The notes below the pieces were generated by a model. That model was not told the DNA's origin. It did not search any database and worked only from the letters and a program-made list of their open reading frames with translations. Positions 196 through 63,469 of a DNA stretch of 64,000 nucleotides are shown here, piece by piece. The stretch's first letter is position 1. The number at the start of each line of letters is the position of its first letter. The stretch is from Rufibacter sp. DG15C (GTDB taxonomy: Bacteria; Bacteroidota; Bacteroidia; Cytophagales; Hymenobacteraceae). Where the stretch lies: the NCBI RefSeq assembly GCF_001577755.1, contig NZ_CP010776.1, positions 558,001 to 622,000 on the forward strand. Reading direction: 5' to 3'. Position numbers and translations under genes: made by a program.

Positions 196-233
196 CGTTT
201 TCGGCCTGTTTTCTAGAAATGATGCCGAAAACG
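196..233. repeat. Dispersed palindromic element, copy 1
   Basis: Left arm CGTTTTCGGCCTG and right end GCCGAAAACG, with the centre TTTTCTAGAAAT. This copy uses the TTTTC/GAAAA form of the arms on both sides. It starts exactly where the serS terminator stem ends. Confidence 0.85.
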
Positions 234-719
234 TCCCTTGCCGCATCCGTTTTATCCGATGGGCGCCAGAGACAAGGCAGTGCCGTTGTCTCTACAGATA
301 AATCCGCGTCAGCGCACGCAGGCATTGCAATCCTTCATCCACCTAGAAGCCCACCGACCGACCTTGCGCAGGGCAGCCATCGGCTGTGCGCCCGGAGCAT
401 GGGAGGAAGCGGCAGTGACTTAACAAGTAGCAGAGCCGTAAGCCCGCCATGAAACAAATCACGCCAGCCAGGTGCACAAAACTGAACCACCGCCTGTCTG
501 AGCGGCAGCGAGTTCGGTGGTTCTTGATTCTTTTGGTTACTTTTCTCATCAAGGAGAAAAGTGACAGACGCGGGTAGAAAGTAAGGGAAAATGAAATTGG
601 TAGTGATGAGTTTGGGAGGCAGAGGCCTAAATGAATAATCAGATAAAGAAGTCATCCCCCTACCCCCTTCAAAGGGGGACGAAGAAGTTCTTTTCCTAAT
701 AAAGGCTTAAACAGAGAAT
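234..719. other. Gene-free gap with Bacteroidota-type dispersed repeats
   Basis: No convincing gene is seen here. A minus-strand open frame (335-655) translates to a string containing VTFLLDEKSNQKNQ. I recognise this as a repeat-derived spurious peptide often annotated in Bacteroidota. The DNA has two hairpins: 484-523 (9-bp arms GAACCACCG/CGGTGGTTC) and 536-565 (12-bp arms with one mismatch). A C-rich dispersed repeat with CCCCCTACCCCC and then AAAGGGGGAC lies at 653-681, and related sequences occur near 18.3 and 42.3 kb. Confidence 0.5.
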
Positions 720-758
720 CGTTTTCAGCCTATTTCCCAGAAAACAAGCCAAAAACGG
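720..758. repeat. Dispersed palindromic element, copy 2
   Basis: CGTTTTCAGCC, then a centre with TTTCCCAGAAAA, then AAGCCAAAAACGG. It directly abuts the stop codon of the minus-strand glycosyltransferase gene (CTA at 759-761). Confidence 0.8.
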
Positions 759-1784
759 CTACGCTTCCTTAGTAGGCGTTAAGACAGGCAGAGTAAAATC
801 AAACGTCTGCTCCCGCATACACCTAAAGTGGCGCTCGGGGCATTTTGAATAGCCAATCTTAGAGCAAGGCCGGCAGTACAGGTTCTTCACTTCCAGCACT
901 TCATAATCCTGCGTGTAGGGGTACATGCCGAACTCCGGAACGGTGTTACCCCAGATGCTGTAAATCTTCTTATGGAACGCGGCGGCAATGTGCATCAAGC
1001 CCGTGTCATGGCTGAAAACGGCCCAAGCCTGACGCACAAGGGAGGCAGAACCGTTCAAGTTGTATTGACCACAGGCATTCAAGATGACCGTATTTTGCGT
1101 AGAATCTGCCTCGTGCTGGCTTTTGTACGGTTCCGTTTGGAAGTACATCGCTATTACATGCCCCACAGCCATATCCTCCTTACCGCCTAAAAGAACAACC
1201 GGACCGTTAATCTTCTCGCAGAGCTCAATAAGCCGATCTACCGGCAAACGCTTGGTGTAATGCTGGGCGCCAATGGCAATGGCGTAGTAGCCGTTTTGAT
1301 GGGTGACAGGCAAGGTGGCCAAGTTTACTTCGTCCTTCTCTGGGATGAAATAGTCAAGGCCTTTATTATCATTGGTCACTCCCAAAGAGGCCGCCGTAGC
1401 CAGATATCTATCTACAATGTGCACCTTGGGCATGCAGTTGATCTTGAATTTGACCAACAGCAACTTCTCCAGATTGAGCTTGTCAAAACTTTTAGAGGGT
1501 TTTCCCAAACGAGCTTTCAAGATGCGGGTGCGCAGGTTGTGGTGCAGGTCCAACACCAGATCATAATTCTCAGCCTTGAGCTGGACCAACAGGTCTTTGA
1601 GCGAATGCTCCAGACAGAATACCTTGTCCACGTAAGGATTGCTGGCAAGTATGTTTCTGAAAGCGGCTTTGGTACAGAAATGCACCTCGGCACCGGGCAC
1701 CTGCTGTTTCACGCACCTGATGACGGGCGTGGTGAGCACAATGTCACCTATGGAGGAGAACCGGATGATGAGGATTTTTTTCAC
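759..1784 (-). CDS. Glycosyltransferase family 9 (heptosyltransferase-like)
   Basis: The product of about 341 residues is a GT-B fold sugar transferase of the ADP-heptose:LPS heptosyltransferase family, expected to act on the cytoplasmic face during LPS or glycan assembly. The N-terminus KKILIIRFSSIGDIVLTTP is the family's signature, and the C-terminal half has the nucleotide-sugar site motif HDTGLMHIAAAF. A Cys-rich tail (YCRPCSKIGYSKCPERHF) is common in Bacteroidota members. The frame is open further upstream to 1850. I chose the GTG at 1784 because a TACCTTTG promoter box lies at 1806-1813, which would place an earlier ATG upstream of the transcript start. The acceptor sugar cannot be deduced. 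Confidence 0.88.
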   Translation of the reverse strand: MKKILIIRFSSIGDIVLTTPVIRCVKQQVPGAEVHFCTKAAFRNILASNPYVDKVFCLEHSLKDLLVQLKAENYDLVLDLHHNLRTRILKARLGKPSKSFDKLNLEKLLLVKFKINCMPKVHIVDRYLATAASLGVTNDNKGLDYFIPEKDEVNLATLPVTHQNGYYAIAIGAQHYTKRLPVDRLIELCEKINGPVVLLGGKEDMAVGHVIAMYFQTEPYKSQHEADSTQNTVILNACGQYNLNGSASLVRQAWAVFSHDTGLMHIAAAFHKKIYSIWGNTVPEFGMYPYTQDYEVLEVKNLYCRPCSKIGYSKCPERHFRCMREQTFDFTLPVLTPTKEA

Positions 1785-1805
1785 ACGTAACCGTTTTAGC
1801 TTCGG

Positions 1806-1813
1806 CAAAGGTA
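1806..1813 (-). promoter_or_regulatory. Bacteroidota -7 promoter box for the GT9 gene
   Basis: Minus-strand TACCTTTG, a perfect match to TAnnTTTG, lies about 22 bp upstream of the chosen GTG start. No clear -33 TTG is seen at the usual distance. Confidence 0.55.
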
Positions 1814-1864
1814 CGCGTCTTGGTACTGAACAGAAAACAGTTAGGCGCAAAGAGTTTTACGTAT

Positions 1865-1903
1865 CCGTTTTTGCCCTGTTTTCTGGGAAAGGAGCCAAAA
1901 ACG
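1865..1903. repeat. Dispersed palindromic element, copy 3
   Basis: CCGTTTTTGCCCTG, centre TTTTCTGGGAAA, then AGCCAAAAACG. It lies in the divergent gap between the GT9 gene and the gene at 2304. The rest of that gap (1904-2240) is AT-rich. It has a 78-codon open frame (1941-2177) with no recognisable features that I do not call. Confidence 0.8.
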
Positions 1904-2240
1904 AGACAAGACCAATCTCTACTTTACCAAAGCTAATCCCATGGTGAATCTTTTTGAAGAATTATCCAGTAATATGTTTGTTGTTTATATAAAATTACTA
2001 TATTTAATCCGTAAGATATTTATTGAAGGAGGAAGTAGCGAACTAGGCACATGGCCAATTGCTACTCAGAGATGGGAGTGCGAAGTAGGAAATAGTTGCG
2101 GTGGGGCACAGAGAGGCTTGAAAGGTAAATTTCTTCATGAAGGAAGATGCGCAAATGTGAGTATTTGGCTCATATAAGCAATTCAAGAAAAAAATTAAAT
2201 AAGATAGATAGCCATTATTATATGTTGTTAAGGATTTATC

Positions 2241-62060: not shown

Positions 62061-62151
62061 GGCGTAAATTCTTAGACGTAAGACACAGGATTCAAGACCC
62101 AAGATTTTCTAACGCAAGTTCCTGGAATCTTGTTTGTCAAGAAGCCACCGG

Positions 62152-62189
62152 CCGTTTTAGGCTGGTTTCTGGAAAAGAGGCCAAAAACG
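62152..62189. repeat. Dispersed palindromic element, copy 30
   Basis: CCGTTTTAGGCTGGTTT, centre CTGG, then AAAAGAGGCCAAAAACG. It lies between the MaoC and old-yellow-enzyme genes. Confidence 0.82.
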
Positions 62190-62227
62190 AAAACATTCTG
62201 GAGGCATCAGCGCTTTCACTTTATAAG

Positions 62228-62258
62228 AAACGCCAGCTACATTAAGCTGGCGTTTTTG
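62228..62258 (+). terminator. Intrinsic terminator upstream of the oxidoreductase gene
   Basis: AAACGCCAGCT pairs perfectly with AGCTGGCGTTT (loop ACATTA), followed by TT. It probably ends the MaoC transcript, separate from the palindromic element copy just before it. Confidence 0.75.
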
Positions 62259-62321
62259 GTTTTGTACATAACTTTCGGCTTTCAGCCGAGGTACACGTCA
62301 CTATCTGCAACTCACTCTCTT

Positions 62322-63392
62322 ATGGCTTCACTTTTCACACCGCTCACCCTTAGAGGCATCCAGCTTAAAAATAGAATTGCCATCTCGCCCATGTGCCAAT
62401 ACTCTTCTGAGGACGGATTTGCCAATGACTGGCATCTGGTGCACCTGGGTAGCCGGGCCGTGGGCGGAGCCGGCCTCATTATTCTGGAGGCTACCGCCGT
62501 CTCGCCCGAGGGAAGGATCACGCCAGACGATTTAGGCCTTTGGAAAGACGAGCACCTCCCGTTTCTGGAACGCATCGTGTCATTTTTGCACAGCCAAGGC
62601 TCGGTGGCCGGCATCCAGCTGGCGCACGCGGGCCGCAAGGCCAGCCACACTTCTCCCTGGAAAGACGGCACTGCTATTCCGCCGCAGGCTAACAATGGTT
62701 GGCAGACCGTGGCGCCCAGCGCCATTCCTTTTCTGGAAGGTGAGCCTACGCCATTGGCCTTGGACCAGGCAGGCATTGACAAAGTCATCGCAGATTTTAA
62801 GGCCGCGGCGCAGCGGGCCCTCACGGCGGGTTTCAAGGTAATTGAACTGCACGGCGCGCATGGCTACCTGCTGCACGAGTTCCTGTCACCGCTCAGCAAT
62901 CACCGCACCGACCAGTACGGCGGCTCCTTTGAGAACAGGATCAGGCTGCTGTTAGAAGTAACCCAGGCGGTGCGCTCCGTCTGGCCAGAGGAGTATCCGC
63001 TGTTCGTGCGGCTTTCTGCCACAGACTGGACCGAAGGCGGCTGGACGCTGGACGACTCCCTGGAACTGGCCAAGATCCTGAAAGGCCATGGTGTGGATTT
63101 GATTGACTGCTCAACTGGCGGCAACGTACCCAAAGCGCCCATTCCGGTGGGGCCCTTGTACCAGGTTCGGTTTGCTGAAGAGATAAAAAAGGAGGCGGGT
63201 ATCATGACCGGCGCCGTGGGCATCATCACCACCAGCCAAGAGGCCGAAGCCATCGTTTCCAGCGGACAGGCTGACCTGGTGCTGCTAGCCCGCCAGTCTT
63301 TGCGGGACCCCAACTTCCCGCTCAGGGCCGCGCATGAACTAGGCGAAGAACTAGAATGGCCGGTCCAATATGAGCGCGCGAAGTTCAGGTAA
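62322..63392 (+). CDS. NADH:flavin oxidoreductase (YqjM-like old yellow enzyme)
   Basis: The 356-residue product is an FMN-dependent TIM-barrel ene-reductase. ISPMCQYS contains the redox-tuning Cys typical of YqjM. Other motifs are [33 protein letters not shown] and [10 protein letters not shown]. It should reduce activated C=C bonds using NAD(P)H; its physiological substrate is unknown. The ATG at 62322 is chosen because the open frame upstream runs through a repeat and a terminator. Confidence 0.93.
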
Positions 63393-63419
63393 TCTGAACT
63401 AGCTGCTATGTTATCATTC

Positions 63420-63469
63420 AAAAGCCGTTTTTGGCCTGCTTTCTAGAAAACAGGCCAAAAACGGCTTTT
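63420..63469. repeat. Dispersed palindromic element, copy 31
   Basis: AAAAGCCGTTTTTGGCCTG, centre CTTTCTAGAAAA, then CAGGCCAAAAACGGCTTTT. The same flanks (AAAAGCC/GGCTTTT) occur at copy 14. It lies between convergent genes and ends in five T residues. Confidence 0.92.

Follow-up and report, generated by a model that had tools for sequence, protein, structure and literature searches.

A palindrome family in a Rufibacter chromosome

The window analysed here is the complete 64-kb stretch G000:C1:558001-622000 of Rufibacter sp. DG15C (genome G000), whose chromosome is a single 4.14-Mb contig of 50% GC. In it, 32 copies of a palindrome of 38-42 bp were called with a symmetric position-weight matrix (PWM) built from a genome sample. 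At the same cut-off no copy was called in the control, the window sequence reversed but not complemented. A first-pass annotation of this DNA had counted 31 copies of 38-50 bp by eye; the dense family that it described is real, with one more copy and a shorter unit. Single-arm matches with at most three mismatches number 51 in the window, against 1.19 expected. Genes were predicted with a simple codon-usage script, so the junction classes and in-gene counts given here and below carry error.

Thirty of the 32 copies lie outside predicted genes, as many as had been counted as intergenic, and a second in-gene copy was found besides. No strand is assigned to any copy; PWM scores follow the coordinates in brackets. 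At the left end of the window are copies at 196-233 (46.4) and 720-757 (55.1). Divergent regions hold those at 1866-1903 (49.4), 5717-5754 (54.9), 15294-15331 (47.2), 20234-20271 (52.9) and 36524-36561 (58.5). A copy at 28063-28100 (58.3) lies upstream of dnaE and is present in 10/10 relatives. Tandem regions contain copies at 11622-11659 (51.6), 13907-13944 (55.3), 16977-17014 (53.6; just 3' of the stop of a gene ending at 16971), 21742-21779 (56.0), 46408-46445 (49.7), 47151-47188 (59.0), 50390-50427 (37.6), 52959-52996 (52.7), 54525-54562 (60.6), 60299-60336 (45.6), 61454-61491 (48.7) and 62152-62189 (45.0).

Ten copies lie between convergent genes. Three of these have an extended stem, at 27574-27611 (61.5; present in 5/5 comparable relatives), 55333-55370 (60.3) and 63426-63463 (62.9). 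Two overlap terminator-like hairpins, that at 12267-12304 (48.2) the end of the hairpin at 12224-12272 and that at 42550-42587 (38.8) the start of the hairpin at 42581-42624. The copy at 42259-42296 (38.6) begins immediately 3' of a stop (gene end 42258), and that at 48565-48602 (36.2) shares 3 bp with the end of a gene. The remaining three, at 25020-25057 (50.1), 37065-37102 (52.0) and, in degenerate form, 40856-40893 (31.8), are present in 6/7 comparable, 10/10 and 7/7 comparable relatives, respectively. Inside predicted genes are a weak copy at 5115-5152 (20.5; gene 3936-5645), across which the orthologue in the relative G013 aligns ungapped, and a copy at 17651-17688 (44.8; gene 17118-18245), whose G013 orthologue also has the element and aligns ungapped. 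The window also holds near-perfect inverted repeats outside the palindrome family, with arms of 26-36 bp, at 31902-31964, 33077-33132, 33123-33198 and 57036-57094.

Copy number and anatomy of the unit

Forty stretches of 20 kb (800 kb of the 4.14 Mb, 19%) were sampled at a threshold of at least 26 of 36 matching positions. The sample yielded 305 copies, with none in the reversed control, and extrapolates to ~1,580-1,600 per genome. The first-pass annotation had expected thousands if the window density held; the extrapolated total is more than a thousand, not the handful of copies that it named as the refuting case. Arm matches with at most one mismatch number 466 + 494 in the whole genome and 0 in its reversed control. 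Sampled stretches contain 1 to 12 copies each, and the spacing of elements is somewhat more even than random (coefficient of variation 0.81; random, 1). The stretch with the fewest elements, G000:C1:104001-124000 (1 in 20 kb), has 37% GC and is perhaps acquired DNA.

The full unit of 38 bp reads CG-TTTTT-GGCCTG-TTTTC-NN-GAAAA-CAGGCC-AAAAA-CG, and weaker TY/RA flanks extend it to 42 bp. By the position matrix the ends are symmetric CGTTTTT, the outer flanks are not conserved, and the centre, previously given as CTGG, is C-NN-G. Arm spacing was exactly 2 bp in 231/231 pairs, where anything from -18 to +60 had been permitted. Of 556 arm matches, 94 were unpaired in this test; 93 of these could be scored, and 73 had a partner at the fixed place (11-13 of 18 matches) while 20 had none. 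Conservation is uneven, with T at 97-100% at arm positions 4-6 and 15-16, and with C replaced by G in 22% but by T in 6% of copies at position 10, which is unlike the neutral decay of a copied unit. The better-matching arm among the 305 sampled copies was the left in 126 and the right in 127, with 52 ties, and exact arms occur on both strands round the whole chromosome. Strand or replichore polarity was thus rejected for want of an overall bias, a weak replichore tendency alone being left.

Placement relative to genes

After-stop, divergent and convergent positions had all been reported, and all were seen, in unequal shares: among regions of at least 45 bp, a copy is carried by 63/84 convergent, 156/287 tandem and 26/80 divergent regions. 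The palindrome centre lies a median of 56-60 bp from the stop codon, and on 103/341 stop-facing sides no more than 20 bp separate the stop from the edge of the element. Occupancy is highest in convergent regions of moderate length, at 27/28 for 120-300 bp (variance/mean 0.13) and 6/6 for 300-600 bp (0.17). Together these regions have a copy in 33/34 cases and are strongly underdispersed, against 24/37 at 45-120 bp and 8/13 above 600 bp. In-gene copies are spread along genes, with the next element 986 bp away compared with 789 bp for random in-gene points (p 0.056).

Arm covariation and a terminator-like minority

Two classes of copy were distinguished in the window genome. In 252/316 copies without an extended stem the arms vary independently (4.70 mismatches vs 4.65 expected, standard deviation 0.07). 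In the other 64/316, at least 3 further base pairs extend the stem into the flanks, core mismatches are fewer, and the arms covary (2.44 vs 3.25 expected, standard deviation 0.11). Because the two classes differ, core and flank positions contrast when all copies are taken together: complementarity at core positions is little or no higher than for independent arms (largest z 2.5, at a single position), but the flank positions from -1 to -4 do covary (z 3.4 to 5.5).

Downstream composition separates the classes as well. In tandem regions of 11 genomes, T makes up 48% of the next 10 nt after extended copies (78) and 32% after the others (350), and the latter have no T-rich tail (downstream T 0.32, A 0.30 at the mirrored place). 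Within the window genome's own tandem regions, G-U mismatches, the type compatible with RNA pairing, are no commoner than A-C mismatches (207 vs 195), and gene-proximal and gene-distal arms score alike (24.83 vs 25.06, p 0.74, n=171). A hairpin of at least 8 pairs abuts 30/305 copies, against 2/610 control sides. By anatomy, ~20% of copies resemble hairpin terminators that incorporate the palindrome unit and ~80% do not. Ordinary unrelated terminators, which the first-pass annotation had allowed as a refuting case, are therefore the wrong description for the larger class and an apt comparison for the smaller. The palindrome had no Rfam match at the gathering threshold.

Species dialects with conserved positions

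A core pattern (at most three mismatches) was found in 16/16 Rufibacter genomes (genus in the GTDB sense) and in 1/23 other genomes, once. A skeleton pattern (at most two mismatches) matched 4/291 genomes of the order, the only four Rufibacter drawn, and 0/287 others; it matches just 27 places in Rufibacter tibetensis (G008), and may therefore overlook other dialects elsewhere. With matrices re-estimated for each genome, density was 0.32-0.66 copies/kb in ten relatives sampled over at least 100 kb (G008 apart), against 0.40 in the window genome; four further Rufibacter relatives were sampled at 16-20 kb only. Element loss in G008, suggested when the window-genome matrix found 7 copies in 120 kb, was rejected, as a composite matrix of the relatives finds 63 copies at a score of at least 18 in 160 kb. 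Because the G008 count depends on the matrix, the core-pattern counts of 16-999 reflect dialect more than copy number.

Beyond the genus, no palindrome exceeded the control-based threshold in 100 kb of G016 and 80 kb of G023. Plasmid collections returned short weak matches except for one of 38 bp and 81.6% on a Rufibacter tibetensis plasmid. On plasmid NZ_CP012644.1 of this species, positions 190001-235438 hold 1 element in 45 kb, against ~18-21 expected at chromosomal density; G008 carries this plasmid stretch with 100% identity at matching coordinates, by which it is assigned to the species. A phage collection gave short weak matches only among the best 10 of 52, and viral contigs gave 0 matches to one exact skeleton pattern.

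Rufibacter species have distinct consensus dialects on an almost invariant T-tract skeleton. The consensus arms are CGTTTTTGGCCTGTTTTC in G000 and G013, CGTTTTGGGCCTGTTTTC in G006, CGTTTTCGGGCTCATTTC in G012 and CGTTTAGGGGCTGTTTTT in G005 (42.6-50.7 bits), while in other relatives the consensus is looser, at 26.7-42.1 bits, with the top value coming from just 8 copies. At orthologous sites in seven relatives, the G000 copy fitted its own matrix better in 38/38 cases and the relative's copy its own in 37/38, with matrices that differ between genomes and were partly trained on the same copies, as holds for all presence calls. By relative, the own-matrix fits of the G000 and the relative's copy were 9 and 9 of 9 (G012), 4 and 4 of 4 (G005), 6 and 6 of 6 (G006), 6 and 5 of 6 (G003), 5 and 5 of 5 (G004), 4 and 4 of 4 (G014) and 4 and 4 of 4 (G015). 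For G013, whose dialect is nearly that of G000, they were 13 and 15 of 18. A general rule for the 2-bp centre was rejected: pyrimidine-purine steps predominate in G000 (225/318), G012 (51/56) and G013 (42/55), but the preference is missing in G005 (9/59), G003 (24/79) and others, which makes it a dialect trait.

While spellings differ, positions are kept. Within a 60-kb block syntenic between G000 and G013, presence and absence agree in 30/30 comparable regions (18 both, 12 neither). Among 195 orthologous regions from 15 relatives, in which G013, G012 and G015 supply 80/195 and the same region may recur across relatives, 102 have the element in both genomes, 82 in neither, 3 in G000 only and 8 in the other only, that is, 11 discordant. 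Elements at orthologous sites are 0.58-0.77 identical in ungapped comparison against 0.26-0.44 for the 40-bp flanks, and are the more alike in each of 10 relatives.

In-gene copies were made mostly by base changes, not by insertion. In 121 orthologue comparisons from 37 distinct sites, not all independent, 108 were ungapped across the site and 13 gapped, and the element was called in the orthologue in 55 and not in 66. Among the comparisons listed, 10 genomes share an identical peptide at one site, yet a weak element (score 16-19) was called in 4 of the 10, which implies that the element was written by synonymous change. A further in-gene element, at the peptide AVYGTFSQKQVINNG and its variants, was called in all six genomes listed for it (G003, G004, G005, G008, G014 and G015).

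Dense motifs in other Hymenobacteraceae

G016, of another genus, carries a polar motif that looks unrelated to the palindrome, AAAACGSTA-NSS-TTTT-N6-AAAAAST, at 82-83 sites in 100 kb and with 2,060 genome matches at up to two mismatches. The same search gave 237 matches in its congener G021 and, among the other 78 family genomes, one match each in 7. Four orthologous junctions could be compared between this motif and the palindrome: one has both, two the palindrome only and one neither. Two genomes of a third genus (G023, G018) are rich in TTTTTAAAAA, with 29 occurrences in 100 kb where base composition alone predicts ~0.5; it is possibly a further genus-specific AT motif. A scan of Hymenobacter and Adhaeribacter loci and of 20-kb stretches from three further genera, one genome per genus, had little power and yielded no clear motif; its best result was G019 (top count 5 vs null maxima of 3-4).

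A putative duplex-DNA site and its rivals

Judging from sequence, we favour a reading in which the palindrome is a duplex-DNA site for a putative symmetric dimeric protein and mainly marks the ends of transcription units; we hold it tentatively, at slightly under an even chance. The reader of the palindrome would be a protein whose symmetric dimer, or pair of dimers, contacts two 18-bp half-sites, with the dyad fixed by the 2-bp centre. It may act mainly at transcription-unit ends as a boundary, either by stalling or releasing RNA polymerase that arrives from one side or the other, or by anchoring a topological or nucleoid-protein boundary, and its specificity would drift between species with the sites following. 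What commends such a site is its fixed dyad geometry (231/231 pairs) and independent half-sites (252/316 copies), the uneven conservation, in-gene copies arising by base change, retained junctions and dialects. A transcription-boundary or topological role is our first choice because convergent regions of 120-600 bp carry one copy almost without exception. Since the motif is dense and immobile, is for the most part no RNA hairpin, and stays at the same junctions while its spelling changes, it points to a putative, abundant DNA-binding protein that would have a site at almost all convergent junctions of moderate length.

Several observations weigh against this duplex-site reading. The binding protein is itself putative, and selection acting site by site does not readily account for the re-spelling of ~2,000 sites in a single genus. 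Copies in 26/80 divergent regions are not predicted by a pure end-of-transcription role, nor are the 73/1,183 copies well inside strong predicted genes, which do not tend towards 3' ends. Over 11 genomes G-U mismatches exceed A-C (583 to 502, p 0.015; significant in G012 and G014, borderline in G003), and the covariation score of the 32 window copies, flank columns included, was reached by 34/500 shuffles. The better arm is weakly linked to replichore (70 left:54 right vs 56:73 over the 40 sampled stretches, p 0.04, post hoc), which is unexplained. Finally, separate terminator-like hairpins are found on 66/114 convergent sides with an element and 10/28 without, and on 28/133 against 18/122 tandem sides. 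The elements do not substitute for hairpin terminators, and the two are not complementary.

The main rival, suggested by the dialects and by the origin through point mutation, is an uptake-like drive, although we consider it unlikely. Here the palindrome would be a DNA-uptake or self-recognition sequence spread by recombination: cells would prefer DNA of the local dialect, and the motif would accumulate by point mutation where tolerated, mostly after genes. High density with clade dialects and an origin by point mutation (108/121 ungapped) are indeed found, and the palindrome shares several genomic hallmarks of uptake sequences (PMC1626085, PMC3630211): a density of ~1 copy per 2 kb, dialects by clade, positions that are stable, and in-gene copies that mostly did not arise by insertion. 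The somewhat even spacing fits, as do the near absence from the 45-kb plasmid and 37% GC chromosomal stretches (1 copy each), the layout of the G016 polar motif, with AT tracts ~one helical turn apart as in the uptake signal sequence (USS) of Haemophilus, and a ComEC-type (PF03772) match in 24/25 genomes. Such drive sits poorly, however, with strictly paired half-sites that hardly ever occur alone, with 94% of copies lying outside strong genes and with per-junction counts below Poisson. Pilus parts are also unconvincing: of two families tested, T2SSE had no match over the cut-off in Rufibacter or G016, and the PilM_2 matches there are one open reading frame each of 444-449 aa, taken as FtsA by size only.

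That the copies are ordinary intrinsic terminators sharing a stem sequence by chance seems improbable to us. Their 3'-end location, the covarying flank columns, the fewer core mismatches and covarying arms of the 64/316 extended copies, the 48% T downstream of 78 such copies in 11 genomes, and the separate strong hairpins beside 30/305 copies all agree with it, but the other 80% have unlinked arms and no T-rich tail, and neither the invariant 2-bp spacing nor the common sequence skeleton is expected of it. Least probable, and strongly disfavoured, is a mobile palindrome of the repetitive extragenic palindrome (REP) or miniature inverted-repeat transposable element (MITE) type moved by a transposase, the nature that the first-pass annotation had proposed. 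High copy number, intergenic location and the excess in convergent and tandem regions resemble REPs (PMC3733652), and Y1_Tnp (PF01797) matches occur in 15/15 other Rufibacter genomes (1-6 each). The whole window genome, however, has 0 such matches at E 0.001, which agrees with the earlier remark that no gene resembling a REP-associated tyrosine transposase (RAYT) lies in the window. Positions are conserved between species, with junctions rarely discordant and few insertion gaps; only 2 of the 305 sampled copies are identical, where a MITE would leave near-identical recent copies; and relatives have similar densities, each in its own dialect. A RAYT link in the relatives was likewise rejected, since near 14 of their Y1_Tnp genes elements are no denser (21 in 45 kb, score 14) and no flanking pair was found.

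A broader conjecture, which we rate as doubtful but worth stating, is a hitherto undescribed genome-wide code in Hymenobacteraceae: some genera, and many Rufibacter species, would each have their own dense, putatively protein-read duplex motif, re-spelled in place as the reader changes, and serving as a boundary mark or as the first uptake or self-recognition system of Bacteroidota. It would cover the Rufibacter palindrome, the polar 30-bp motif of the G016 genus and possibly the AT palindrome of the G023 genus. The dialects would offer a natural series for studying either the co-change of a protein and ~2,000 sites or a new origin of uptake sequences.

Comparison with known systems

Literature searches on Rufibacter and Hymenobacteraceae palindromes and related terms found no published name for the element, in line with the first-pass annotation. 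Short chromosome-protein dyad sites of fixed geometry are familiar from parS, matS, Noc and SlmA sites; the palindrome differs from these in being far more numerous, at about one per convergent junction, and in having species dialects. With intrinsic terminators it shares the location at gene 3' ends and the anatomy of ~20% of copies, while ~80% lack covarying stems and T tails.

REP/RAYT systems are likewise short, intergenic and of high copy number, and REPs have the same excess in convergent and tandem regions (PMC3733652). The palindrome has no GTAG or CGTC tag (T is 0.99 where CGTC needs C), and it is further set apart by arms that mostly do not covary, a window genome devoid of Y1 transposase matches, positions common between species and in-gene copies that are mostly not insertions. 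The USS of Pasteurellaceae and the DNA uptake sequence (DUS) of Neisseriaceae resemble it in density, dialects, positional stability, origin by point mutation and the occurrence of inverted pairs linked with terminators, and the same kind of orthologue gap test showed that Haemophilus USSs are not insertions (PMC1626085). Unlike USS and DUS, the Rufibacter palindrome almost always consists of two inverted arms 2 bp apart, lies outside strong genes in 94% of cases and is found in genomes where two pilus families have no convincing match.

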